IMG/VR virus record: IMGVR_UViG_3300021957_000202
Coordinates: 1-29,683 of that record
DNA length: 29,683 nt
Reading direction: 5' to 3' (one strand)
Source of the DNA: a virus
Position 1 is the stretch's first letter; each line of letters starts with the position of its first letter. The translations under genes were made by a program, and so were the position numbers. This document shows positions 1,950 through 20,377 of this stretch, piece after piece. Below the pieces are notes generated by a model, which was not told where the DNA came from, did not search any database, and saw nothing but the letters and a program-made list of their open reading frames with translations.

Positions 1950-3914
1950 TTAAAACGGCGGTTCATCCGTACTTTGATTACTTCCGTTTAAATTTACTAA
2001 AATCTTGGGATTTTTTTCATTTGTCAGCATTATATATTTTCCTGCCTCCATTAAACTAACTGCGGTAGAGGCTTCTACAAGCTTGCAGCTCTCTACGTCT
2101 CTTATAAAAGTCTTAGCTTGGTTTATCGTTTTACCTTGTACGCTCTTAGCTAGCCTTTCTAGTTCGTCTACCGTCCATTCTTTACCTCCTGGGCCTTGCG
2201 TTTCCTTTACTGTTATCTCTACGTCTATACCTCTTACGCTTAGTTCAAGATCCGGAAAGCTTGCGTTTCTTGTATACAGTCCCTCTATATAAGTACTTTT
2301 ACCGTCTTCGCTTCTGCTTACACCGTAAACAGTTTCTGCCTTTTGTACTAGGTAGCTTCCTAAGTGTCCTTTAGCGCCTCTATCGTTCTTATTTTCGTGA
2401 AGGACCGTAACTAGGTTTAGGTTCTTGTCTGCGCTTATCTTCATTAGTTTACTAACTAAAGCTATAGCTTCCGGTTCCTCGTTTACCCCGTTAGCTATAT
2501 CTACTATACCGTCTATAATACATAAGCTAACCCCTTCTATACGTCTTAGAGCATATTCTATAATACTAAGCCTATCTGCGTTAGTATCTGCTCTACGTAG
2601 TGCGAAGTACTTTAACCGTTCTTGGCCTACTTCTTTAGGTATTCCGGCTAAGTGCAGTATTCTTTGGTTTACCCTTTGCGCGTGGTAGTCTCCCTGCTCA
2701 GTATCAAAATATAAGACATTACCTTTTACTATTCCAGCTTTTATAAGGTTCTCGCTGTAGCCTTCTCGAATAGCTGCGGCAGCCAAGGCACTAACAAAGT
2801 AACTTTTTCTACTCTTGGCTTTCCCTTGTACTAGGCTTATGTTCCCAGCAGTCGCTAGTGTATAAGTCTCTAGCCCTAGCTTTAATTCTAATATGCTAGG
2901 CGGGTTTTTTATTTCTTGGGTAGGATCGAGTAAATACTTTTCTAGTAAGTCCTCGGTAGGCTCTGCGCTCTCTTGGGGTTCGCTTAGTGCCTCCTCGTAC
3001 CTTTCTACCTCGTTTAGTTTCTTAGGCTTTTGGGTTCCGTAGCCTTCAGCTTTTAAAGCGTTAGCGCTGGCTCTATAGTCGTTATTATATTCTAAAGCTG
3101 TTACTAGCGTATAGCTGTTATAAATCGTTTCTGCTTCTAGAGCTGTGCTAGTGGTCCATACGTATAAAAGTCCGGAGTCCTTAAATACTTTACCGCTGTC
3201 CGGTGCTTCGCTTTGTCCCGGTCTTTTAACGTAGATAAACTTACTATCCTCTCGTACTATGGTCCAGCCGTGGCTTTGTATTACCGTTAGGCAGTCTACT
3301 TTATTTTTATAATCGTCCCACGGTGTAAGCTCGTCGCTGTCTTTTAAGCTTGGTTTAGGTGCTTTGTAGGTTACTTCTACTTTTGGGGTTTCATCTAGCT
3401 CCCTAGCGCAGTCTAATAGTATAGCCCTCTCTTCCGGCGTTATAAACTGTATGTTACTCGCTTTAGTCTCTAGCTTATAGCCAGGAGTCGGCCAGGCGGC
3501 TACTTGTCCCCCTATTCCTCTAGTCTCAAAGGTTACCTCTTTAGCTTTGTTCTTAGCTAGCTTTTGGTTCCCTTCTATTACCTCGCACCTATATAGGAAG
3601 TGAAAGCCACCGCTAGGCGTTTCTTGTATTACTAGCTTTGCTAATATATCGGGGCCGTTAGCTTCTAGTAGTGCTATGTACTCTTTAAACTCATTTCCCG
3701 TAAAGTGTTTAGCGTCTATATCTAATACCTCTAGGCCATTATAACCACAAACTAAGCCGAGGCTATCCGTAGTAAATACGTTAAGATCTTCTATAGGAGC
3801 TTCTTTGTACTTTGTCCAGTCCTTTAGTAGTGGTCGCTTTTGTCCACTTACTAGAGGCACCGGGCTAAAGCCGTGCTCTATATATAATTTAGCGGCCTGC
3901 TGTATATCTTGCAT
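1950..3914 (-). CDS. Primase-polymerase / RepA-like helicase fusion
   Basis: 654 residues with two catalytic parts. The N-terminus is an archaeo-eukaryotic-type primase (bifunctional primase/polymerase domain). It shows the GFSPVPL and KRPLLKDW entry motifs, the metal-binding pair D65 and D67 in LEVLDIDAKH, and SGGFHF with H105. The C-terminal half is a RecA/RepA-type ATPase with Walker A GKAKSRKS (364-371), LYFDTEQ (401-407), Walker B LCIIDGI (464-470) and VTVLHENK (502-509). It should unwind the origin or fork and lay down primers for host polymerase, since no phage polymerase is visible. The protein ends in STDEPPF, which resembles the SSB acidic tip. The gene begins 9 bases after the upstream nuclease stop. 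Confidence 0.9.
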   Translation of the reverse strand: MQDIQQAAKLYIEHGFSPVPLVSGQKRPLLKDWTKYKEAPIEDLNVFTTDSLGLVCGYNGLEVLDIDAKHFTGNEFKEYIALLEANGPDILAKLVIQETPSGGFHFLYRCEVIEGNQKLAKNKAKEVTFETRGIGGQVAAWPTPGYKLETKASNIQFITPEERAILLDCARELDETPKVEVTYKAPKPSLKDSDELTPWDDYKNKVDCLTVIQSHGWTIVREDSKFIYVKRPGQSEAPDSGKVFKDSGLLYVWTTSTALEAETIYNSYTLVTALEYNNDYRASANALKAEGYGTQKPKKLNEVERYEEALSEPQESAEPTEDLLEKYLLDPTQEIKNPPSILELKLGLETYTLATAGNISLVQGKAKSRKSYFVSALAAAAIREGYSENLIKAGIVKGNVLYFDTEQGDYHAQRVNQRILHLAGIPKEVGQERLKYFALRRADTNADRLSIIEYALRRIEGVSLCIIDGIVDIANGVNEEPEAIALVSKLMKISADKNLNLVTVLHENKNDRGAKGHLGSYLVQKAETVYGVSRSEDGKSTYIEGLYTRNASFPDLELSVRGIDVEITVKETQGPGGKEWTVDELERLAKSVQGKTINQAKTFIRDVESCKLVEASTAVSLMEAGKYIMLTNEKNPKILVNLNGSNQSTDEPPF

Positions 3915-3923
3915 TAGGTTTGT

Positions 3924-4328
3924 TTATAGTAGTAGTTCCCAGTTATTTTTATACTGGTTGTATCTGTTGTTATCGTTCTTTGGATCTAGGCTTAAACTGC
4001 TTATAGTTACTTCTTCAAAAGGTATAATATAAAAGGTGTCTATATACCAAATATAGATAGCGTAAAAGTCTACCTCGTTAGCTTTGTACTTTCTATAGGT
4101 TGGGTTAGTGCTCTTTATTCTTCTTTGTAGCATCGTACTAAATACATTCTTCCTCCGGTTATCCTTGCTAGCGTATTTTATTTGAACCTTATAAAGCGTT
4201 CTATTATTGTCTACTATACAGTCGTAAGCGTAGCCGTCTACAGCGGGTACTAATACTTTTAGGTCTAAGCTAATAGCAGTACTTATAAATCTATACTCGG
4301 CTAGAGCTCCTTTATTCCGGGTGTTCAT
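3924..4328 (-). CDS. PD-(D/E)XK endonuclease (PDDEXK_5-like)
   Basis: 134 residues. The pattern is GALAEYRFISTAISLDLKV at the N-terminus, then DGYAYDCIVDN with D36, and YKVQIKYA with Q49 and K51. This is the layout of the PD-(D/E)XK endonuclease family that includes the cyanobacterial group I intron nuclease I-Ssp6803I and several stand-alone phage and archaeal enzymes. It overlaps the RusA gene by 17 bases and is followed by the primase-helicase, so a role in recombination or repair is more likely than homing. No intron is visible around it. Confidence is good for the fold and low for the substrate. Confidence 0.65.
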   Translation of the reverse strand: MNTRNKGALAEYRFISTAISLDLKVLVPAVDGYAYDCIVDNNRTLYKVQIKYASKDNRRKNVFSTMLQRRIKSTNPTYRKYKANEVDFYAIYIWYIDTFYIIPFEEVTISSLSLDPKNDNNRYNQYKNNWELLL

Positions 4329-4689
4329 CCGATAGCGTTATTATAATTTGCGCCGTGTTCGCTGGTATTGATTCCTTCCATACCAAAAGCAAGTGTCGAA
4401 AGTATTTAGGGCTATCGTCCTTAATCCATCCCAAGGTTTTAAGAGCGTCGCTAGTGAATTTAACAGCAATAATACTGTTATCCAAATCGTAACGGTAACG
4501 CACATTAGCAGTAACTCTAAAGCTATTAAAAGGAGCGTCTTGATTAAAACCCAGTTGCTCTTTAACCTCTTTAAGTGCAGCGTCTTTAGCTTTCTTTCTT
4601 TTTGTCCAATGTGAGCCGGCATAAAAACTATTTAAGCTAGGTACTTTACCTAGTGTTAGTACTATCTCTTTATTCTTCCTGGTCTTCAT
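4312..4689 (-). CDS. rusA: RusA-type Holliday junction resolvase
   Basis: 125 residues, close to the 120 of E. coli RusA. The family signature is clear: GKVPSLNSFYAG at the N-terminus, RYDLDNSIIAVKFTSDAL holding the metal-binding D68 and D70 plus K77, and GWIKDDS with D91/D92. In E. coli the equivalent residues are D70, D72, K76 and D91. The enzyme cuts four-way junctions symmetrically and clears branches from replicated phage DNA before packaging. Its first 20 bases overlap the upstream 42-residue gene, and its end overlaps the next nuclease gene. Confidence 0.93.
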   Translation of the reverse strand: MKTRKNKEIVLTLGKVPSLNSFYAGSHWTKRKKAKDAALKEVKEQLGFNQDAPFNSFRVTANVRYRYDLDNSIIAVKFTSDALKTLGWIKDDSPKYFRHLLLVWKESIPANTAQIIITLSDEHPE

Positions 4690-4798
4690 CCTCGCAGCTA
4701 CAGTCGTAGTATTCTTCTAATATGCACCCGCCGCAGTTCTCGCAGGTTTCCTCTTGCTCCTTGTAGTAGCTTCTTAGTTCGTAGTCTAGTCCATCCAT
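4670..4798 (-). CDS. Cysteine-rich mini-protein (zinc-knuckle-like)
   Basis: A 42-residue acidic protein. The cysteines are arranged as C-x2-C-x2-C in TCENCGGC and C-x-C in YDCSCEDED, enough for one zinc site. The end overlaps the RusA start by 20 bases. Small zinc-binding proteins of this kind are common in phage early regions and often bind nucleic acid or host proteins, but nothing points to a specific role. It starts at the first of two overlapping ATGs (ATGGATGG). Confidence 0.55.
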   Translation of the reverse strand: MDGLDYELRSYYKEQEETCENCGGCILEEYYDCSCEDEDQEE

Positions 4799-4803
4799 TA
4801 GCT

Positions 4804-4890
4804 TTAGTCTTTCTCTATTCCGTTGTCGTTACGATCTCGGTAACATAGTTGTATCATTGTCATAGTCTTGGTGCAGTTGCAGTTACTCAT
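4804..4890 (-). CDS. Possible 28-residue peptide
   Basis: A short ORF beginning MSNCNCTKTM. Its start overlaps the end of the preceding 30-residue membrane peptide by 8 bases, and its stop is 5 bases before the next ATG. Only this packing supports it. No motif beyond a C-x-C pair is present. Confidence 0.3.
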   Translation of the reverse strand: MSNCNCTKTMTMIQLCYRDRNDNGIEKD

Positions 4891-4975
4891 TATCTTCTTT
4901 ACTTACTTGGTATACTATTATTAATCCTCCTATTATATAGATTAAAATAAGTAATAGCGTTACTAGTGTTTTCAT
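4883..4975 (-). CDS. Single-span membrane mini-protein
   Basis: A 30-residue peptide that is almost entirely one hydrophobic helix: TLVTLLLILIYIIGGLIIVY (residues 3-22), then a short charged tail. The start is preceded by ACCAAAGAGAAATG. This is nearly the same leader as the next upstream ORF (ACCAAAGAGAGATG), which suggests deliberate translation. It may be an inner-membrane peptide acting on the host, but the function is unknown. Confidence 0.5.
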   Translation of the reverse strand: MKTLVTLLLILIYIIGGLIIVYQVSKEDNE

Positions 4976-4987
4976 TTCTCTTTGGTT

Positions 4988-5068
4988 TTATTTGTCTATC
5001 ACTTTATTGAATATATGATTCACAAACAGTCTTAATGTGCATCCGTGTACTTCAAAATCCTCACTCAT
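4988..5068 (-). CDS. Possible 26-residue peptide
   Basis: A short ORF starting MSEDFEVHGCTLRL. Its leader CACCAAAGAGAGATG closely matches the one before the membrane peptide at 4975. It lies directly after the hairpin at 5089-5153. The shared leader is the only real support. Confidence 0.35.
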   Translation of the reverse strand: MSEDFEVHGCTLRLFVNHIFNKVIDK

Positions 5069-5088
5069 CTCTCTTTGGTGTTAAAGGT

Positions 5089-5153
5089 TAAAGGGAGGGT
5101 TTGCCGAATAACCACTTCACTTAGTTTAAATTAGTATAAACCCCCTCCCTTTA
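5089..5153 (-). other. Hairpin with long loop after a stop codon
   Basis: TAAAGGGAGGG and CCCTCCCTTTA form a perfect 11-bp stem around a 43-base loop, beginning 3 bases after the stop of the 101-residue gene. A further TTT/AAA pairing is possible across a two-C bulge. There is no U-run after it, so it may be a processing or stability element or an attenuator rather than a full terminator. Confidence 0.5.
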
Positions 5154-5156
5154 TAC

Positions 5157-5462
5157 CTATTCTTTTTTAGTCGCTTTATACTCGTCTACTTCAGCTCTAA
5201 GCATTGCCAGCTCCTCCAGGTCTAGCCCTAGTATTAGCTCTACGTTGCTTTGTATCTTCGTCAATAGCTCCGGATCTTCTTTATCTAAAGCTGCTAGAGG
5301 GTTCTTTATTCCTCGCTCTAGCTCCTTCTCCGTATTGCTTAACAGTTGCTTTAGCTTATGCTTATATAAAGCCGTTCCCTTGAGCTCGTCCATTTGCTCC
5401 AAAGTGGCCTGCATTAAAGCTACTAGCTTTACCGCTTTCTTAAATAGTTGGTAGTTTTCCAT
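5157..5462 (-). CDS. Helical protein of unknown function
   Basis: 101 residues, strongly helical, with heptad-like leucine and charge spacing (LVALMQATLEQMDELKG, LLSNTEKELERG, LDLEELAMLRAEVDEY), so a coiled coil is likely. The start is coupled to the stop of the methyltransferase gene. A long-loop hairpin follows the stop. It is not recognised. Its position after the helicase and methyltransferase suggests an accessory role in DNA metabolism. Confidence 0.7.
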   Translation of the reverse strand: MENYQLFKKAVKLVALMQATLEQMDELKGTALYKHKLKQLLSNTEKELERGIKNPLAALDKEDPELLTKIQSNVELILGLDLEELAMLRAEVDEYKATKKE

Positions 5463-6466
5463 TAAAAGAGGGTTTTTTGTTCTTCCTCATCTTTAAAGCG
5501 TTGGTTAGCTTCTGCTAAATTTATAACAGCTTGTTTATAGTAGCTATCTTTTAATTCAATACCTATAGCTTTGCGGCCTAAACTTACCGGACTGTAAACC
5601 TCACTACCTACACCCATAAAAGGAGTAAGTACTGTTTCTCCTGGGTTGCTCCAAAGATCTACGCATCTATCTATTACATCTAATTGTAACGGGTGTACGT
5701 GTTTCTCGTCATCGTCTTCCCTTGAATCTCTAAAAGGTAGTACGTTGTTTATTCTAATATCGTCCCAAACCGAGCTAGCGTAACGCTGCCATATATAATG
5801 GTTTAGCTTAGTAATTCCTTCCGGCTCGTTTACATTGTTTAAGTGCTCCCATAACTGCTCTGCAATAAAGTCGCTCTTATTAGCATTATTCCAAGCTTGT
5901 AAGATATTTGGTAGTATTGGAATTTCTCCGTAGTATTTATTTAGTCCGTGTTGATGGGTTACCGGTACCTCTGCCTCTCCTTTCCTTTTAAAAATTAAAA
6001 GGTAGTCGGGCTGTGCTGGGAAGCATTGCGTAGCATCTTCTACTATAAGCTTGTGCATTAAACTTTTTACCATAGTACGCATACGTACTTTAAGTGGCTC
6101 CTTCCAAATAGTTACACGTCCTTTATATTGGAATCCGTGCGCCTGGTGTAGTCTTATTACCTCGTTAGGGAAGTCCCAGCTATCGCCGTTATTCTGCACT
6201 ACCTCCGTAACGTGTACCGCATTAATCCTACCGGCTTTAGTTACTCGTCTTAATTCTTTTATAAGGTATTCGTACTGTTTTAAAAAGTCCTCCTTTGTAT
6301 CACAGTTACTAAAATCTCGGTGAGAGCTGCTGTAATTATATAGCCCAGCGAAAGGAGGACTATATACGCTTAAATCTATACTGCTGTCCGGTAGTGTTGG
6401 CATTACTTCCATACAGTCGCTATTATAAATAGCGTAATTCTCGGTAATCGTTTGTTGTTTTGTCAT
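5462..6466 (-). CDS. DNA methyltransferase, N6-adenine/N4-cytosine type, beta class
   Basis: 334 residues. Catalytic motif IV is SPPF (36-39). The AdoMet side comes last: HVHPLQ (257-261), then motif I TPFMGVGSE (281-289) and IGIELKDSYY. Having motif IV before motif I is the beta-class order. The SPPF tetrad allows either adenine-N6 or cytosine-N4 methylation. No cognate restriction enzyme is seen, so it is probably an orphan enzyme that protects phage DNA or marks it. It sits one base after the SNF2-like helicase gene, a pairing seen in other phages. The target sequence is unknown. Confidence 0.9.
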   Translation of the reverse strand: MTKQQTITENYAIYNSDCMEVMPTLPDSSIDLSVYSPPFAGLYNYSSSHRDFSNCDTKEDFLKQYEYLIKELRRVTKAGRINAVHVTEVVQNNGDSWDFPNEVIRLHQAHGFQYKGRVTIWKEPLKVRMRTMVKSLMHKLIVEDATQCFPAQPDYLLIFKRKGEAEVPVTHQHGLNKYYGEIPILPNILQAWNNANKSDFIAEQLWEHLNNVNEPEGITKLNHYIWQRYASSVWDDIRINNVLPFRDSREDDDEKHVHPLQLDVIDRCVDLWSNPGETVLTPFMGVGSEVYSPVSLGRKAIGIELKDSYYKQAVINLAEANQRFKDEEEQKTLF

Positions 6467-6467
6467 C

Positions 6468-7886
6468 TTATAAAAATTTTGGTAGTTCTATTTCTTTGTT
6501 AAATTCTCTTTTTTTCTCCGTGTACGTCTCGTTTACGTTCTTAGTAAGGTTCTCGTAAAGCTCTATAGCCTTTTGCGTTTTTTGCTGTAGTGCATCTATT
6601 ACCCTTTTTTGACCGTCGCTAATAACTATATCTATAGTTACTTCCTTTGTTTGTCCAAACCTCCAAAAACGTCTAATAGCTTGGTAGTATTGCTCGTATG
6701 AGAAAGTAGGAAAAATAACCGAGTGGCTACAGTGCTGCCAGTTTAAACCGAAGCTAGTCATCTTTGCCTTAGTTATTATTCTCTTTATCTTTCCTGCGCT
6801 AAAGTCCATTAGTATTTGCTCCTTCTTTTCTATTTTCATAGAGCCGGTAATTTCTACCGCTTCCGGATCCATCTCTTTAAGTAGTGCGCTTTCATTATTT
6901 GTATTACACCAATATACTGAAGTCTTACCGGCTGCTAGTTCTACAGCTTTACGGCATCGCTCCGCCTCCGTCTGCTTTTGTTCGTGGCGTATCTCGGTCA
7001 TTGTTTTAGCTACTGGTATTACTATACCCATTTGGCCGTTATGATCGTGCCTAGAAGTATTTACTACCGTATGCGTAACCGTGTTAAGCTTTGGTAATTT
7101 ATAGCGCTCATCACTATAGCCTAAGTCGCTAGGCATCTTACACATTATAGACCATTGATTCACCCAAGCAAAAAAGTCCTTTTCTGCGTGAGGCTTTAAA
7201 TAGTACTTCTCGCCTATATTTCTATTGCGACTGTCTATGCTACTTTGGTTATTCTTAAAAAACTTTGTAAGCATATCAGTATAACCCATATAACCTAAAG
7301 CCTCTGCGCTAGTACCTAGTTCTATAAAGTCATTAGGGCTAGGTGTTGCAGTAGATAAAAACCTATAACGGACCTTTTTTATAAATGTCGTAATTTGGTT
7401 TTTTATCTGCCCTTTAAAGTTCTTTAGTATAGAGCTCTCATCTAATATAACAGCCTCGAAGTCTTCACTATTAAACAAGTGTAAGCGCTCGTAATTACAA
7501 ACTATTATATCTCCTTTAATCTCCCCTTTTAAAGATTGGTATACGTTAGGTATATCCATTTTCTCAGCTTCTTTTATAAACTGAAAACCTACGGCTAAAG
7601 GTGTAAGTATTAGTACTTTCTTACCGGTATACTCTACTACGTTTTTAGCTATGGCTAACTGTATTAAAGTCTTACCTAGTCCAGTATCTGCAAAAATTGC
7701 TATACGTCCTTTTCTTACAGCTCGTTCTATTATTTCTTTTTGGAAGTCAAAAGCTATACTAGGAATGTAAACCGGATCAAAACCCGATTTACTTAAACTG
7801 TGCTTCTTACTTTCTAGAAAATCTAGGTAGCTGGTCTTAGTATCTTTTTTTGTTATGGTAATTCCCATATGCAGTATTTTACTCAT
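6468..7886 (-). CDS. SNF2-like superfamily 2 helicase
   Basis: 472 residues with the SF2 motif series: Q-like region FDFQKEIIERA (46-56), Walker A DTGLGKT (67-73), motif II DESS (149-152) in place of the usual DEAH, motif III STATPSP (178-184), and motif VI QAIRRFWRFGQ near residue 415. The DESS box, the compact size and the motif VI form are those of phage SNF2-like DEAD/DEAH helicases. It probably remodels DNA-protein complexes or branches in replication and recombination. It lies 4 bases downstream of a small basic protein and just before the methyltransferase, forming a likely functional pair. Confidence 0.9.
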   Translation of the reverse strand: MSKILHMGITITKKDTKTSYLDFLESKKHSLSKSGFDPVYIPSIAFDFQKEIIERAVRKGRIAIFADTGLGKTLIQLAIAKNVVEYTGKKVLILTPLAVGFQFIKEAEKMDIPNVYQSLKGEIKGDIIVCNYERLHLFNSEDFEAVILDESSILKNFKGQIKNQITTFIKKVRYRFLSTATPSPNDFIELGTSAEALGYMGYTDMLTKFFKNNQSSIDSRNRNIGEKYYLKPHAEKDFFAWVNQWSIMCKMPSDLGYSDERYKLPKLNTVTHTVVNTSRHDHNGQMGIVIPVAKTMTEIRHEQKQTEAERCRKAVELAAGKTSVYWCNTNNESALLKEMDPEAVEITGSMKIEKKEQILMDFSAGKIKRIITKAKMTSFGLNWQHCSHSVIFPTFSYEQYYQAIRRFWRFGQTKEVTIDIVISDGQKRVIDALQQKTQKAIELYENLTKNVNETYTEKKREFNKEIELPKFL

Positions 7887-7890
7887 TGCT

Positions 7891-8088
7891 TTAAAACTTT
7901 AACCACCTGCTACGGCGTTCGTACTTCCTTACTAAGCCGCCTAAGTTCTTTAGGTGCTTTTGCATCTCGTAGCTATATTCCGTAGCACTTGCTACTATAA
8001 CGGTGTTAATAATCTCCCAGCGCGTTTCTGCTAGGTACTTGCTTACATATCTTTTATGTAGCTGCTTTCTAAAATACTTCTTTAGCAT
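7891..8088 (-). CDS. Small basic protein of unknown function
   Basis: 65 residues, highly basic at both ends (MLKKYFRKQLHKRY and RKYERRSRWLKF) and probably helical. It may bind nucleic acid. Its start overlaps the end of the 50-residue basic gene upstream by 20 bases, and the helicase starts 4 bases after its stop. No family is recognised. Confidence 0.65.
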   Translation of the reverse strand: MLKKYFRKQLHKRYVSKYLAETRWEIINTVIVASATEYSYEMQKHLKNLGGLVRKYERRSRWLKF

Positions 8089-8221
8089 CTTTCTTACGTT
8101 TTATTTTGCGCTTCTTTGGCTTACGCTTACCGGGGTAAAGCGTAGCCTTCAGTCGCTTGTAGTCCTTATTTAGAGCCTTGCTGTTCTTAGCTATGTGCTC
8201 TAGTAATTCCTGCTCATTCAT
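8069..8221 (-). CDS. Lysine/arginine-rich 50-residue protein
   Basis: An ORF starting at ATGAATGAG just after the terminator-like hairpin at 8231-8300. The C-terminal half is dominated by K and R (YPGKRKPKKRKIKRKKDAK), so it should bind DNA or RNA. It ends inside the start of the next gene (20-base overlap). It is the first gene after the hairpin, so it may be read only when transcription passes that element. Confidence 0.55.
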   Translation of the reverse strand: MNEQELLEHIAKNSKALNKDYKRLKATLYPGKRKPKKRKIKRKKDAKEVF

Positions 8222-8230
8222 AAATAAAAA

Positions 8231-8301
8231 AGGGGGGCCGAGATAACAACAACATAACTACTACCTGCCGTATAGAAACGGCAAAAAGAGCCGGCCCCCC
8301 T
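8231..8301 (-). terminator. Strong hairpin with U-run, long structured loop
   Basis: Read on the minus strand, AGGGGGGCCG pairs with CGGCCCCCCT as a perfect 10-bp stem (arms 8231-8240 and 8292-8301). It is followed by TTTTTTATT, as in an intrinsic terminator. The 51-base loop holds its own hairpin, TGCCGT/ACGGCA (8266-8271 and 8278-8283). It begins about 10 bases after the stop of the exonuclease gene. The nested hairpin makes it a candidate for attenuation between the early SSB/exonuclease genes and the helicase genes. Confidence 0.65.
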
Positions 8302-8311
8302 ACACCTAACA

Positions 8312-9088
8312 TTAACTAAAATGATCTCTAATAATATACTGGCTTAACGGTTTGCCCTCTTGGTAGTACTCCCGGTAAACGTCAATAGCTCTAGCTACCT
8401 TTTCCTTACCGCTCTTTATAAAGTCTTCGCCCGTGGTAAATATACCTACGTCGTAGCTGCTCTTATCTACTACCAAAAAAGTAAACTCCTCTAACCCGAA
8501 TAGGTGCGTATAGATTGCCGCCTGGGCATCGTAGCCGAAAGTATAAGCATTATACTTAAACTTATGTATATCGGCAGTAGTCTTTAAGTCTACTATACGC
8601 TGGCCTTTATGTAGTATATCGGCCTTACATCTAAAAGGGAGCCCCATTATATTTCCTATCTGCGGTACTTCCGTAGCCGCTCCGTAGATCATCTCGTAAG
8701 CTTCCGGACAGTCCTTAACCGCTCTAGATACTTTCTTAGCCGTAGCTATCTCTATAACTGTAAAGGTGTTCTCCGGTCCGTACTCTAGCGCAGCGTCTTT
8801 ATACGCTTTCGCGGTCCTGCTCTTTACATCTACTACGTGTAAGCTTTCCTCTTTATGAGGTTCCAACAGTAGCAAATGTATAAGCTTGCCCTCTCGTAGT
8901 GGCTTGCTTTCTACCTGCGCTTCTTTTAAACTAGCTTGGTAGGCTTTGGGGCTTTGCAGTAGCTTCTTCAAGCTGGAGCTGCTTAGAGCTGCCTTGCCTA
9001 AATAACCGTAGTAGAATTCATCGTTAAGCATTTGCTCTAATATCTCTACGCGGTCCCACTCCTTACCGTCTAGTAACTTGATCTTCAT
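8312..9088 (-). CDS. RecB-family PD-(D/E)XK exonuclease (DUF3799/RecE-like)
   Basis: 258 residues. The RecB-nuclease pattern is complete: G67-x3-H71 in REGKLIHLLLLEP, E140 in ATEVPQIG, D157 in FRCKADIL, D167-x-K169 in IVDLKTT, and Q189-x3-Y193 in YDAQAAIYTH. This is the phage family related to RecE and Cas4. It should resect double-stranded ends to feed strand annealing or recombination-dependent replication. No RecT or Erf-type annealing protein is recognised, so the adjacent SSB-like protein may be its partner. The start overlaps the stop of the 57-residue gene by ATGA. Confidence 0.88.
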   Translation of the reverse strand: MKIKLLDGKEWDRVEILEQMLNDEFYYGYLGKAALSSSSLKKLLQSPKAYQASLKEAQVESKPLREGKLIHLLLLEPHKEESLHVVDVKSRTAKAYKDAALEYGPENTFTVIEIATAKKVSRAVKDCPEAYEMIYGAATEVPQIGNIMGLPFRCKADILHKGQRIVDLKTTADIHKFKYNAYTFGYDAQAAIYTHLFGLEEFTFLVVDKSSYDVGIFTTGEDFIKSGKEKVARAIDVYREYYQEGKPLSQYIIRDHFS

Positions 9089-12103: not shown

Positions 12104-13771
12104 TTATGAGGTTAGGGTTGCAAGGTTTCCATTACTTATACGAGTATCAAATAAAAGCACTCGGTTAACTCTTTGCTTAGCCTTTATACTGCCATCATAG
12201 TTACCATATCTCACATCATCGCAAGCAGGTATAGTTAGCGTGTCTGCCGTTCCTACTTCCGTTCCGTTAATGTAAAAAGCCATATCTCTACTATCATAAG
12301 CAATAGCACATTTTAACCTATCGCCTTCAGCAAAGAATGAGGTTGTAGTTGTTATGGTGGCTTGTGTAGAACCTCCTTGTTGCACTCTTGCAAACACTTG
12401 CTTTGCGCTTGTGGTATCTATTAAAATATAGTTGCTTGAGGTTGAATCACTAATAGAAAAATTAACTTTGTCTGCCTCATCAAAATAGGCATCAAATAAA
12501 ATTGTTCCTTCCGTTTGACCTATCACCCCACTTTGATTAAGTAAGGTGTTTACATCCGCATCCCTCGTAACGCTTCCGCCACTATGGTTAGGTATGTAGC
12601 TTGTTGGGTATGAGCCTTGTTCTAATTGTGCGCCAAAAGCATACATATTAATATTAGAGCCACTACTTACAAAACGGATACTACTTGTTGTTGTGCTTGT
12701 AGCCGTGAATGTTGTGCTATATCTATTCCAATCGTTATCTATTGTTATAGTTTCAAGTTGAGCAGTTCCGTGACTACCAATATCTATTGAAGTATTACCT
12801 CCATTATTTTTTAAGTATACTGAAAATGTATAAGTAGTACCCGATGTTAAAGCGACATTGTATCCTACTCTCCCTCCGCTTAAAGGGGATTCTACTAATG
12901 TAGCGTTTTGGCTTCCATCGGGAGAAACCGCATTATTATTAGTTAAAGTAGTTCCCGAATTTTTATCCCAATTTTCATAGTATTCACTTTCACCAATCAG
13001 TTGAGTCCTACTCGGCTCTAAAAGCAGACTCGGACAACTTGCCCCACCGCTATAATCAAATCTTGGGGAGTCCTCTAATATTCCTGCTAATCCCGTACTC
13101 GCTCCCGATTCAATGTATTCCGTAGCTACTAAACCTTGTTCTAATTGGGCATCTTGTATGTAGATGTAAGAACCTATTGCAGAACTTGAACCCCCCGAAT
13201 CAGAAGCGTAAAAACGAATATCGCTTGTAGTAGTGTTAAAGGTTATGCTTATTCTATACCAATCTCCACTAACATTATTTACAGAAATATCTATTATATT
13301 ACCTTGATTCAAATAGCCATCAATAGTGCCGTTACTTAAATTTATAAAAGCACCTTGATTTGTTGAACCTGCAATTCTAAAATATATGTAATCTACATTT
13401 CCTTTTGCAGCATAAACTGAAGCGGTCTGCACTCCACTTGAGACAATGTTTTGTCTTGCAAAAGCACTGCCCGTATTTGTACTTGTTATTTTCCAGGCAT
13501 CACTTGAACCATCATAACCACTTTGTCCACTTGTAACACTTACATTGCCAGCTGTCCAAATAGTGTCAAACTGATTGCTTTGGAAGAACAAATTTTCCCT
13601 TCCTTTCTCTATCAGTCCGTTGCTATCTACCCTCGTAGCCGTTAGGTTTGAACCTCTTGAAAAGGTGAAGTCTCCATCACCATTAGTAGGCTTCATACTA
13701 TAAGCCTTTCCATCTTTTCCCGCTTGTCCGCTTGGCAAGAATACTAAACTTGCATCGTCAAAAAAACTCAT
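12104..13771 (-). CDS. Tail surface/receptor-binding protein with carbohydrate-binding-like repeats and lectin-like domain
   Basis: 555 residues. The N-terminal 65 (FTFSRGSNLTATRVDSNGLIEK region) is a common phage tail/spike attachment stretch. Two related beta-sandwich repeats follow, about 65-215 and 255-395. Each ends in a matching signature: IQDAQLEQGLVATEYIESG in the first and FGAQLEQGSYPTSYIPNHSG in the second. They resemble carbohydrate-binding modules. The C-terminal about 410-550 (GTILFDAYF, FYINGTEVG) looks like a concanavalin/LamG-type domain. Together these suggest binding to cell-surface glycans. Codon use differs from the core genes (more CTG, CTT and AGG), and the gene contains no CTAG. 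Confidence 0.7.
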   Translation of the reverse strand: MSFFDDASLVFLPSGQAGKDGKAYSMKPTNGDGDFTFSRGSNLTATRVDSNGLIEKGRENLFFQSNQFDTIWTAGNVSVTSGQSGYDGSSDAWKITSTNTGSAFARQNIVSSGVQTASVYAAKGNVDYIYFRIAGSTNQGAFINLSNGTIDGYLNQGNIIDISVNNVSGDWYRISITFNTTTSDIRFYASDSGGSSSAIGSYIYIQDAQLEQGLVATEYIESGASTGLAGILEDSPRFDYSGGASCPSLLLEPSRTQLIGESEYYENWDKNSGTTLTNNNAVSPDGSQNATLVESPLSGGRVGYNVALTSGTTYTFSVYLKNNGGNTSIDIGSHGTAQLETITIDNDWNRYSTTFTATSTTTSSIRFVSSGSNINMYAFGAQLEQGSYPTSYIPNHSGGSVTRDADVNTLLNQSGVIGQTEGTILFDAYFDEADKVNFSISDSTSSNYILIDTTSAKQVFARVQQGGSTQATITTTTSFFAEGDRLKCAIAYDSRDMAFYINGTEVGTADTLTIPACDDVRYGNYDGSIKAKQRVNRVLLFDTRISNGNLATLTS

Positions 13772-17110: not shown

Positions 17111-19306
17111 TTAAAAGCCTCTGTATCTAGTTCTTACTCTTCCTGCTTTCTCGGAGCTTAGGAGTATGTCCTGGCCGCTTATGCGTCCGTACACCTCTAC
17201 AGCTCCTCCGGTGGCTCCCGCTATTTGTGGTAGCTTGCTTAGTGGTATTACTGCCTCCGGTCCTGCCTCGCCTATCATTGCTAACTGGGGGCCGTTCACT
17301 ATACCGCCTTCAGCTAGGAAAGGTATTTTAATACCTGCACCTTTACTAACTGCCTTCATTCCTACTAGTAAACTCTCTAAGCTCAAGCCCGCTAAACCTG
17401 CGCCCGAAGTAATAACTAATAAAGTAGCTAATATAGCTACTAAAGCTATCGTAGCTATTAGCTGCGCTGCCATAGCCTTTAAAGCTGTTATAAAGCTTTC
17501 CGCGAAGCTATCGCCGTTTACTATTGCGCCCGCTATAGCGTTACTTAAATTTGTGCTAAACTCGTAAGCTAGTCCTCCGGTTAAGTCTATAGACTGTTTT
17601 AAAGGTTCGCCTAAATTTACTAGGCTTTTTTGAAGTCCTACTAGCTTGGTTTGTACTTGAGTAACAGCTCCGTTTAGTAAGCTAGTCATTCTTTGCTGAC
17701 TAGGGTATAAGTCAGCGTCTATAGTTTTAGCTAATCCGCTTACTACTGATTCGTACTGTTTAGTAACTTCGGTAGCTTCCTCGGTTTCTTTATTATTGGC
17801 GGCTTGTTTTTCTCTTAACTTGTCTAGGCCAGCGCTTACTTTCTCGCGCTCCGCTTTTAAGGTTTCTAAGTGTCCTTTTAATTCTTTATAGCGTCTAGTT
17901 TCTTCCGCGTCGTAAAACGGGTTACTATAGTTAGCTACGTATTCTTTTATAGCTTGGCCTTGGTCTATAATAGAATCGGTTAAAAGCTCGTAGCGGTCTT
18001 GTAGTTCCTTGGCGCTCTTTTCTGCGTCTTCACTTGCTAGCGCTTTATCTACTGCTTTTTGTGTTAGGTCTACTTCTTTTCTTAAACCTAGATACAAAGC
18101 AGTAACCCCGGCTATAGCTATACCTACCGGCCCCATAGCAGCCGTTAAAGATCCAAAGGCTATACTAAGAGCCCCTACCGCAGTAATTACTAAAGGTACT
18201 AAAGCAAGTAAGCCGGCTAGTATAACTTTATTATACTGCTCGGCGTCTGTCATTCCGCTAATAGCTTTAGTAATCTTTCCTACTGTAGCGGTAAGCTTTT
18301 CTAGTACCCCTTTAAATACTTCGTTTTCCGTTATGGATTCGCCTATTTCAATTAAGGCCCCCTCCGTAGCACTTTGTAAAATCTTAAAGGCTCCGGCGGT
18401 ATTATCCATCATTTCCTCGGCCATAGCTTGCGCTGCGCCTTCGGCATCTTGATAACTTACTGTAAGATCGTCTACTAGCCCCATTTGCTCAGTAAGAACT
18501 AATAAAGCACCTTTAGCCCTTTCTCCTACTAAGTCGTTAGCATCCGCTAAATTTATATTTTGATTAGATAGCTCTCTAAAGGTTTGCGTCATTGGCTTAC
18601 CTTCTCGGTGCAGCTCGCTAAGTATCTTCTTTAGAGCCGTACCTGCTATAGAGCCTTTAATACCGTTATTGGCTAAAGCTCCTAGCATTGCGCTAGCTTC
18701 CTCTACACTAACCCCGGTAGCTTTTGCAATAGGCGCTACGGTCTTCATAGCTTCCGCGAAGCTCTCCATATCTAGGGAGCTAGTGCTAAAGCTTTTAGCC
18801 ATTACGTCCGTAATTCTGCCGGTTTCTTCTGCTGCTAGGCCAAAGGCTCGTAAAGTAGATCCTGCTACCTCTGCCGCTCGTCCTAGTTCAGCGCCTCCGG
18901 CCTGGGCTAAGTATAGCGTAGATTCCGTAACCTTATCTATCTCGCTAGCGGTAAATCCAAGCTTTGCAAATTCTACCTGCAAGCCCGCTACCTCGGAGGC
19001 CGTAAAGGTTGTAGAAGCTCCTAGCTTTTTAGCTTGGTCCTCTAGTATTTTAAATTCTTGAGCAGTAGCACCGGAGACGGCTTTTACTTTACTCATTTCT
19101 GCCTCGAAGCCTTGGAAGGTTCTTACAGCTATGGCCCCTAATCCAATTAGAGGCGCAGAAATTCCAGTACTTAAAGTAGTGCCTATTTGTTTAGCTTGCG
19201 TACCAAAGCGGCGTAATTTAGAGCTGGCTATTTTTAGCCCTCTTTTAAGTCCGTTTAAGTTAGCGCCTATGCTAACGTTAGTACTCGCTACGCTCTTTTT
19301 TGCCAT
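17111..19306 (-). CDS. Tail tape measure protein
   Basis: 731 residues. Residues about 65-240 carry the TP901-type tape measure domain (FEAEMSKVKAVSGAT, LGASTTFTASEVAG, EFAKLGFTASEIDKV, ATGVSVEEASAMLGAL). Hydrophobic segments follow near 360-405 and 605-650, and a coiled-coil-like region lies near 410-520. The C-terminal AEGGIVNGPQLAMIGEAGPE is a common tape measure ending. The protein sets tail length. At the usual 0.15 nm per residue it predicts a tail near 110 nm. The start ATG lies inside the end of the frameshifted chaperone frame. Confidence 0.92.
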   Translation of the reverse strand: MAKKSVASTNVSIGANLNGLKRGLKIASSKLRRFGTQAKQIGTTLSTGISAPLIGLGAIAVRTFQGFEAEMSKVKAVSGATAQEFKILEDQAKKLGASTTFTASEVAGLQVEFAKLGFTASEIDKVTESTLYLAQAGGAELGRAAEVAGSTLRAFGLAAEETGRITDVMAKSFSTSSLDMESFAEAMKTVAPIAKATGVSVEEASAMLGALANNGIKGSIAGTALKKILSELHREGKPMTQTFRELSNQNINLADANDLVGERAKGALLVLTEQMGLVDDLTVSYQDAEGAAQAMAEEMMDNTAGAFKILQSATEGALIEIGESITENEVFKGVLEKLTATVGKITKAISGMTDAEQYNKVILAGLLALVPLVITAVGALSIAFGSLTAAMGPVGIAIAGVTALYLGLRKEVDLTQKAVDKALASEDAEKSAKELQDRYELLTDSIIDQGQAIKEYVANYSNPFYDAEETRRYKELKGHLETLKAEREKVSAGLDKLREKQAANNKETEEATEVTKQYESVVSGLAKTIDADLYPSQQRMTSLLNGAVTQVQTKLVGLQKSLVNLGEPLKQSIDLTGGLAYEFSTNLSNAIAGAIVNGDSFAESFITALKAMAAQLIATIALVAILATLLVITSGAGLAGLSLESLLVGMKAVSKGAGIKIPFLAEGGIVNGPQLAMIGEAGPEAVIPLSKLPQIAGATGGAVEVYGRISGQDILLSSEKAGRVRTRYRGF

Positions 19307-19940
19307 TTGCTTAGTATTGCTTTAGCTTGTTCTTTACTTAGCTTTGCCCCTTTGTGTTTGCTGTCCCAAGGGAAGTTATAGAGCTCCTTGGGCTTTACTC
19401 TTTTATTTTTAGGTAGCTGTAAGTTAACTAGCGTTACCGTTTGGCTTCGCATTATTTCCCAAAGCTCGCGGCTTACCGCTTCCCTCTTTTCGCTAAAACC
19501 CGCTACAGCATTATTAAGGCTGCGCGGGGTAAGTTCTATAAACTCGCTGTAGTTATAACCTAGTAAGCCTAAAGCTATCTCTTCGCAGCGGTCAAAAGTA
19601 AGCGGGGCTTCGGGGCCTTTAGGTCCCCTAACCCCGTCTACTTTTTTGCAGGTGTAAAGCTTTCGGTAAAGACTGCTAAAACTTGCTCTAAGGCTTCCGG
19701 GCTTTCGTCTAGCCAGTCGGCTATCTCTTCGCTAGTAGCGTTAAACTTTTCGCCCTCTACTCTAGCGCCTTGCTTTAGTCCAGCTTTAATAAGCTCTATA
19801 GCTTGGCTTAGTGTTAGACTATCGCCTATACTATCTAACTGCGCTAACGTATAATTGGTAGCGTCCGTAAATTGCATTAGCGCCGCGAAGCCAAATTTTA
19901 CTGGCCTCTCTTCGCCTCCTATGTTAACCTTCTTTACCAT
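19288..19940 (-). CDS. Tail assembly chaperone GT-type fusion made by -1 frameshift
   Basis: The zero frame (19940-19638) meets an open -1 frame that runs from 19641 to a stop at 19288-19290. That adds 117 residues and gives a 217-residue fusion. The extension begins VDGVRGPKGPEAPLTFDRCEE and ends KAILSKWQKRA, with IALGLLGYNYSEFIELTPR in the middle. No start codon is needed, and it fills the otherwise empty gap to the tape measure gene. This is the conserved G/GT arrangement of long-tailed phages, in which the fusion recruits tail tube protein to the tape measure. The slip site is A AAA AAG at 19641-19647. Confidence 0.88.
19603..19636 (-). promoter_or_regulatory. Frameshift-stimulating stem-loop
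   Basis: CGGGG (19632-19636) pairs with CCCCG (19603-19607). Within it GGGG-A-CC pairs with GG-CCCC around a TAAA loop (19612-19628). The two stacked GC helices begin 4 bases after the slippery heptamer, a little closer than the usual 5-9. Confidence 0.7.
19638..19940 (-). CDS. Tail assembly chaperone, short (G-type) form
   Basis: 100 residues, the zero-frame product. It is helical and mildly acidic (FGFAALMQFTDATNYTLAQL, AIELIKAGLKQGARVEG, ATSEEIADWLDESPEALEQ). Its place between the tail tube gene and the tape measure gene, and the slippery end GCA AAA AAG TAG, mark it as the G-type chaperone. It ends ESFTPAKK. The short and long forms together coat the tape measure protein during tail assembly and do not remain in the virion. 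Confidence 0.88.
   Translation of the reverse strand: MVKKVNIGGEERPVKFGFAALMQFTDATNYTLAQLDSIGDSLTLSQAIELIKAGLKQGARVEGEKFNATSEEIADWLDESPEALEQVLAVFTESFTPAKK
19641..19647 (-). promoter_or_regulatory. Programmed -1 ribosomal frameshift heptamer A AAA AAG
   Basis: Read on the minus strand in the zero frame, GCA AAA AAG TAG contains the classic slippery heptamer A AAA AAG immediately before the stop. Four bases later, a stem-loop at 19603-19636 should pause the ribosome. The -1 frame is open for 117 codons beyond. Confidence 0.9.
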
Positions 19941-19966: not shown

Positions 19967-20377
19967 TTAAGATACTTGGTCGTAAGTTATAGCGCCGGTT
20001 AGCTCAAAAGTAGCCGAGTAGCTTACATTGTCCTCCATTCCAGAATTTACTTCTAAAGAGGTTACATAAGCTGAAGCCTCCCAGTAGTAGTCTCCGCTTA
20101 CTTCAGTAGAAAACTTAACAGTAAGAGCAGTACGTGCGCTCCAAGCTGTCATAAGTTCCTGGACGCCGTAAGCTGCATCTTCTGCGTATAGTGCAGATAC
20201 CGAAATAGTACCGCTTTTAGTTGCTTCTAGTAAGTCTCTTGTGCCAGAGCTGTCCTTAGTAGTTGCGTCTCTCGTATCCATTGATAAAGAGATAGAGCCC
20301 TCTGTAGCGTGAGCTATTAGAGTGCCTGCTGCGTAAACCCCTAGTAGGGTTCCGTTCATAATGCCAGTAGTTGCCAT
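19967..20377 (-). CDS. Major tail tube protein
   Basis: 136 residues, fitting the TP901-1-like tail tube family: MNGTLLGVYAAGTLIAHATEGSISLSMDTRD near the N-terminus, then a beta-rich body and ATFELTGAITYDQVS at the end. Position is decisive: after the tail terminator genes and just before the chaperone pair. It polymerises round the tape measure to form the tube. Confidence 0.85.
   Translation of the reverse strand: MATTGIMNGTLLGVYAAGTLIAHATEGSISLSMDTRDATTKDSSGTRDLLEATKSGTISVSALYAEDAAYGVQELMTAWSARTALTVKFSTEVSGDYYWEASAYVTSLEVNSGMEDNVSYSATFELTGAITYDQVS

Follow-up and report, generated by a model that had tools for sequence, protein, structure and literature searches.

The 29,683-nucleotide stretch of DNA analysed here (the window, a 29.7-kb phage record) almost certainly carries, on its minus strand, a tail-assembly-chaperone gene pair of the phage lambda G/GT type that is expressed by programmed −1 ribosomal frameshifting. 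Comparative sequence analysis establishes the shift site, the overlapping frame, a conserved stimulator, coding constraint on the T extension and the absence of an alternative start. An earlier note on this DNA had read the chaperone gene in the same way, and its reading is supported by the site, the open −1 frame, the conservation of the hairpin and the lack of another start codon.

Gene order and protein identity

The overlapping G and T frames are flanked by the major tail protein gene on one side and the tape measure gene on the other, as judged from gene order and Pfam and PHROG matches, with tube protein, G/GT and tape measure following one another along the minus strand (Table 1). The T frame begins with the GTA codon at 19641-19639 (V1), continues for 117 codons and closes at a TAG (19290-19288) beyond the tape measure ATG at 19306, so that T and the tape measure gene share 19 nt; the GT fusion would be 217 amino acids long. 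The earlier note had described a −1 frame of this length closing within the start of the tape measure gene, which is confirmed, and had pointed out that 330 bases between chaperone and tape measure would otherwise be empty, an interval that we measure as 331 bases. All of the G/T features lie on the minus strand, a detail missing from that note.

Table 1. Features of the G/GT locus in window coordinates
Feature	Coordinates	Strand	Evidence
Major tail (tube) protein, upstream of G	19967..20377	−	PF06199 E 1.3e-13; phrog_1407
G, tail assembly chaperone, 100 aa, ATG, zero frame	19638..19940	−	ORF; TAG stop
Slippery heptamer A_AAA_AAG, zero frame	19641..19647	−	Sequence; invariant among close relatives
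Zero-frame stop TAG, directly 3' of heptamer	19638..19640	−	Sequence and relatives
Two-tier GC stem-loop, putative stimulator, 4-nt spacer	19603..19636	−	Fold; covariation; register control
ACTTTT arm, complementary to AAAAGT (19645-19640)	19594..19599	−	Synonymous constraint; pair probability
T, −1 frame extension, 117 codons + stop	19288..19641	−	Open frame; dN/dS; PHROG; Pfam in relatives
Tape measure protein	17111..19306	−	PF10145 E 8.5e-37; phrog_1533

The AF2 model of G (pLDDT 88, pTM 0.82) folds like annotated tail assembly chaperones, with matches to such proteins in BFVD (best E 4e-6, TM 0.82), and its sequence matches the tail protein family phrog_2115 (E 5e-4). T matches phrog_16333, whose function is unlabelled (E 5e-14), and its structure model is of moderate quality only (pTM 0.49). 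Searches of the PDB by sequence and by fold returned nothing significant for either protein, and tblastn of G against named phages gave no matches. The Pfam chaperone families Phage_TAC_11 (PF11836) and Phage_TAC_6 (PF09550) are matched by relatives, whereas the window's own G and T reach neither: PF11836 is matched weakly by 17 of 32 G relatives (best E 0.0019) and PF09550 by 18 of 35 T relatives (best E 3.5e-5), with T relatives that were scored singly against PF09550 reaching 18.7-22.5 bits, just short of the curated cut-off of 23.4. A profile search with the 117-residue extension had been suggested in the earlier note; done here, it gave the PF09550 matches among T relatives, the singly tested members falling just below the cut-off.

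T relatives occur in Cellulophaga and Bacteroides phages and one third of the tape measure protein is 50% identical to a match from a Flavobacterium phage; the phage thus probably infects Bacteroidota. Because a scan of GTDB species genomes found no prophage copies, this assignment comes solely from relatives. Elsewhere in the window, replication and DNA-processing genes cluster at 1950-9088 on the minus strand and encode a Prim-Pol with an AAA ATPase (3914-1950), an N6/N4 DNA methylase (6466-5462), a helicase (7886-6468) and a PDDEXK exonuclease (9088-8312). The tail protein encoded at 12104-13771 (minus strand) has carbohydrate-binding and lectin-like domains and is likely a receptor-binding or decoration protein.

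The slippery site

The zero frame of G terminates GCA AAA AAG TAG, placing an A_AAA_AAG heptamer at 19647-19641 exactly as the earlier note had read it. By itself the heptamer is not unusual in this A-rich genome, AAAAAAG occurring 35 times in the window as against 18 in shuffles. A second A_AAA_AAG, at 19295-19301 on the minus strand, lies in the zero frame of tape measure codons 2-4 (ATG GCA AAA AAG) and is probably a chance occurrence in an A-rich start region.

To place the site in context, we gathered relatives by scanning IMG/VR with G and T, obtaining 30 distinct junctions in the first instance and later 38 (76 distinct T sequences). AAAAAAG in the zero frame, together with an open −1 frame, is found throughout this set with the exception of L010, a single contig whose hairpin has a 5-nt deletion on its 3' side (L010:1780-1850) that takes away part of the ACTTTT arm. 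The deletion closes the −1 frame and places T in the zero frame behind the TAG; a defect or faulty assembly is the likely cause. Loss of the heptamer from close relatives with an intact −1 frame, which the earlier note had named as evidence that would count against it, was looked for among the 76 T sequences and never seen within the two close clades that they form. Nearly all relatives have TAG or TAA as the codon immediately following the heptamer. The L040-L043/L091-L094 lineage has GAG instead of the stop, and its G extends for 13 further codons through the hairpin; since this lineage retains the heptamer, the hairpin and the −1 frame, the zero-frame stop is not essential.

A conserved hairpin downstream of the slippery site

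The GC hairpin CGGGGTTAGGGG...CCCCGAAGCCCCG occupies exactly 19636-19603 and is separated from the heptamer by the 4-nt spacer TAGA (19640-19637), as the earlier note had placed it. Its stability (z −2.2 to −2.7, with equally stable shuffles in 7/200 and 1/200 trials) is moderately significant in isolation, and it is conservation among relatives, whose 30-38 distinct junctions retain it, that takes the hairpin beyond chance. RNAalifold applied to the 30-junction alignment recovers the GC stem and an inner stem, with compensatory changes: the two clades have G-C and C-G, respectively, at the inner pair, L040 carries A-U where others have G-C, and the outermost pair of the GC stem (alignment 21-54) may be C-G, A-U or G-U. 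When the structure is held fixed, 92% of cells in this alignment are paired, as against 38-62% in slid registers, and 18 double-change cells are observed against a shuffled mean of 7. Rfam gave no matches anywhere in the window. Folding of this region, a check named in the earlier note, thus recovers the GC hairpin with covariation in relatives. The position and two-tier stem that were given for the stimulator stand; its extent very likely does not, as the conserved hairpin probably reaches 6 bp into the slippery site itself.

An arm complementary to the slippery site

The consensus fold also pairs AAAAGU (heptamer bases 3-7 and the following U) with an ACUUUU that begins 38 or 41 nt past the heptamer, with a mean pair probability of 0.85 across the 38 junctions. 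As these pairs hardly vary, they lie beyond the reach of a covariation test. To address the matter in another way, we used 40 T codons at which the residue is conserved and the codon is free to vary, counting synonymous changes on the tree. Codons beyond 17 show a mean of 6-8 such changes, whilst codons 1, 3, 12, 15 and 16 show none. Unchanging codons 1, 3 and 12 fall in the shift site, the stop and the stem, and codons 15-16 are ACT TTT, that is, the arm, with zero synonymous change across 76 sequences. Other Thr and Phe codons in T (38, 68, 49 and 90) vary freely and, past codon 17, only codon 110 is likewise without synonymous change. By rank, we estimate the probability of two adjacent unchanging codons arising by chance at roughly 0.004; a Poisson model gives a lower figure, on which we do not rely in view of the large spread from codon to codon. 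That codons 15-16 never change synonymously indicates that the arm is under constraint at the nucleotide level. Towards the end of T, at codons 104-113 (about 19335-19300), there are likewise few synonymous changes; this stretch adjoins the tape measure start, and the constraint there is probably one of translation initiation.

The constraint on the arm is most simply explained by pairing with the slippery site, and the AAAAGU-ACUUUU pairs probably lengthen the conserved hairpin by 6 bp, taking it into the slippery site. Two other explanations of the arm were considered and rejected. A pseudoknot between the apical loop and ACUUUU is not compatible with L014, L017, L035, L044 and L084, which have no complementary loop. 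Bacteroidota promoters contain the element TAnnTTTG, of which ACTTTTG might form part; the TA spacing is lost in the second clade, however, and the GC stem has no fitting upstream element.

Distant relatives and named phages

More distant relatives carry other heptamers at the junction: C_CCA_AAC (L208, L210), G_GGA_AAC (L211-L213), G_GGA_AAG (L140), which is also the heptamer of phage lambda, and A_AAA_AAA inside A9 runs (Bacteroides phage F4, L123, and MT835789, L125). Every one of these is a canonical X_XXY_YYZ in the zero frame of G, with T at −1. Long, strong stems lie a few nt past the heptamer in L210-L212 (z about −4). No downstream stem is seen at the junctions of L123 (2459-2470), L125 (1862-1872) and Cellulophaga phage phi39:1 (z +0.5 to +0.9), and these stem-less relatives could use polymerase slippage. 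The closest named isolate is phi39:1, whose T is 38% identical. Its junction (L122:2440-2470) has an A8 run, and T is read in +1/−2 relative to G rather than −1. One extra A would restore both A_AAA_AAG and the −1 frame, so a homopolymer miscall is possible, as is a different recoding event. In both phi39:1 and F4, T is annotated as a separate hypothetical protein.

Putting these observations together, we tentatively propose, as a possibility that we rate at rather below even chances, that the locus forms a single extended hairpin whose base is the slippery heptamer (AAAAGU of AAAAAAGUA with the invariant ACUUUU), which would hide the shift site until a ribosome opens it and add control over the timing or frequency of slippage, and that members of this chaperone family have switched their recoding route, some relying on a hairpin to stimulate ribosomal slippage at one of several heptamers and others on A8-A9 runs that have no stem and might act by polymerase slippage.

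Alternatives to ribosomal frameshifting

Could T be a separate gene with its own internal start codon? The annotations of phi39:1 and Bacteroides F4, in which T is listed as an ORF of its own, speak for this, and an ATG 188 nt past the G stop, usually the earliest possible T start, is common in the nearer clade. That ATG falls in the middle of conserved sequence, about 46 codons beyond the PLTFD motif, and the protein upstream of it is conserved too. In the window, the T frame offers no ATG, GTG or TTG before the ATG at 19452, about 63 codons into the extension, whilst in the second clade the common ATG is gone, with scattered TTG codons instead. The earlier note would have given up its reading for a separate start conserved in relatives. 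None was found, and the T frame is wholly devoid of ATG, GTG and TTG in six contigs (L110, L116-L118, L120 and L045), from which it follows that T is made as a fusion to G. An internal start is thus refuted for the full-length extension, and we consider it extremely improbable overall. Less credible still is the idea that the −1 frame is open by chance or is what remains of a decayed gene, with the hairpin acting as a terminator or processing signal. The location of the hairpin at the end of G and the lack of an intact frame in contig L010 would fit, but purifying selection acts on T (median dN 0.18, dS 1.0, dN/dS about 0.26), T is 48-58% identical between the two clades and has PHROG and Pfam matches, and the GC stem is not directly trailed by a long T run. 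This coding constraint refutes a chance ORF, and the probability that we attach to the idea is close to nil.

Slippage by RNA polymerase on the A run, whereby mRNAs that gain one A or lose two would encode GT, is very unlikely, if not to the same degree. The window has an A6-A7 run and F4, MT835789 and phi39:1 have A8-A9; the absence of a stem from these three suits polymerase slippage there. Six As is a short run for such slippage, however, and a covarying hairpin at ribosomal spacing is not needed by a polymerase; moreover, the distant relatives with G_GGA_AAC and C_CCA_AAC have no long run.

We infer, therefore, that the ribosome is the agent that slips, and the rate of slippage and the roles of G and GT outlined here are likewise inferred. 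In −1 ribosomal frameshifting at this site, a ribosome on the slippery site would already have opened the base of the extended hairpin, making the GC stem the first structure that it meets. Most ribosomes would stop at the TAG, releasing the 100-amino acid G protein. In a minority of cases the GC hairpin would hold the ribosome back while AAA occupies its P site and AAG its A site; the two lysine tRNAs would then re-pair one base upstream, and translation would continue in the T frame to give the 217-amino acid GT. By analogy with lambda, GT would bring in tail tube subunits through its T domain while G coats the tape measure protein, and the proportion of G to GT would set assembly.

Comparison with known systems

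The gpG/gpGT pair of phage lambda was reportedly described by Levin in 1993 and by Xu, Hendrix and Duda in 2004. The gene analysed here resembles it in being a two-frame chaperone gene flanked by tail tube and tape measure genes, in −1 tandem slippage at X_XXY_YYZ and in a T domain made only as a fusion; it differs in its A_AAA_AAG heptamer, the stop directly 3' of this and the covarying GC hairpin that comes after. No sequence match to lambda-type proteins was found. In lambda, −1 frameshifting gives a small share of GT, the T domain of which brings the tube protein to the tape measure (PMC5009743). A_AAA_AAG is the site used by E. coli dnaX and is among the most shift-prone in E. coli, much more so than A_AAA_AAA or A_AAA_AAC (PMC5009743). 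In dnaX as here the heptamer is followed by a stem-loop. The dnaX case differs in concerning another gene and in its spacer, which is 4 nt here, and in the aligned junctions no conserved Shine-Dalgarno-like element is apparent upstream. In umbraviruses and HIV-1, lower stems are found beside the shift site, with adjacent stop codons (PMC4737148, PMC4373837). Pea enation mosaic virus, other umbraviruses and HIV-1 thus resemble the phage in having a hairpin base near the slippery site and a lower stem, with an adjoining stop in several, but here a phage and a bacterial ribosome are concerned and the arm is invariant and would pair with the slippery bases themselves; the likeness is one of analogy only, with no relationship implied. 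A literature search, from which subscription papers were outside the scope, found no paper on this site in Bacteroidota phages.

In position, architecture, frame and predicted protein fold, the gene matches lambda G/GT and is largely an ordinary example of a known system. Only two aspects might interest a specialist: the probable extension of the hairpin, and the exchange of shift sites inside a single family. Taken together, the results suggest what two sparsely annotated families of phage proteins may do, with phrog_16333 as the T domain and its G partner as the chaperone, in a setting where annotations of Bacteroidota phages have entered T as a free-standing hypothetical gene. They also offer a natural series on one gene, comprising five heptamers with and without stems, in which to compare how recoding signals are replaced, and an example, open to experiment, of a slippery site that may form part of its own stimulator.
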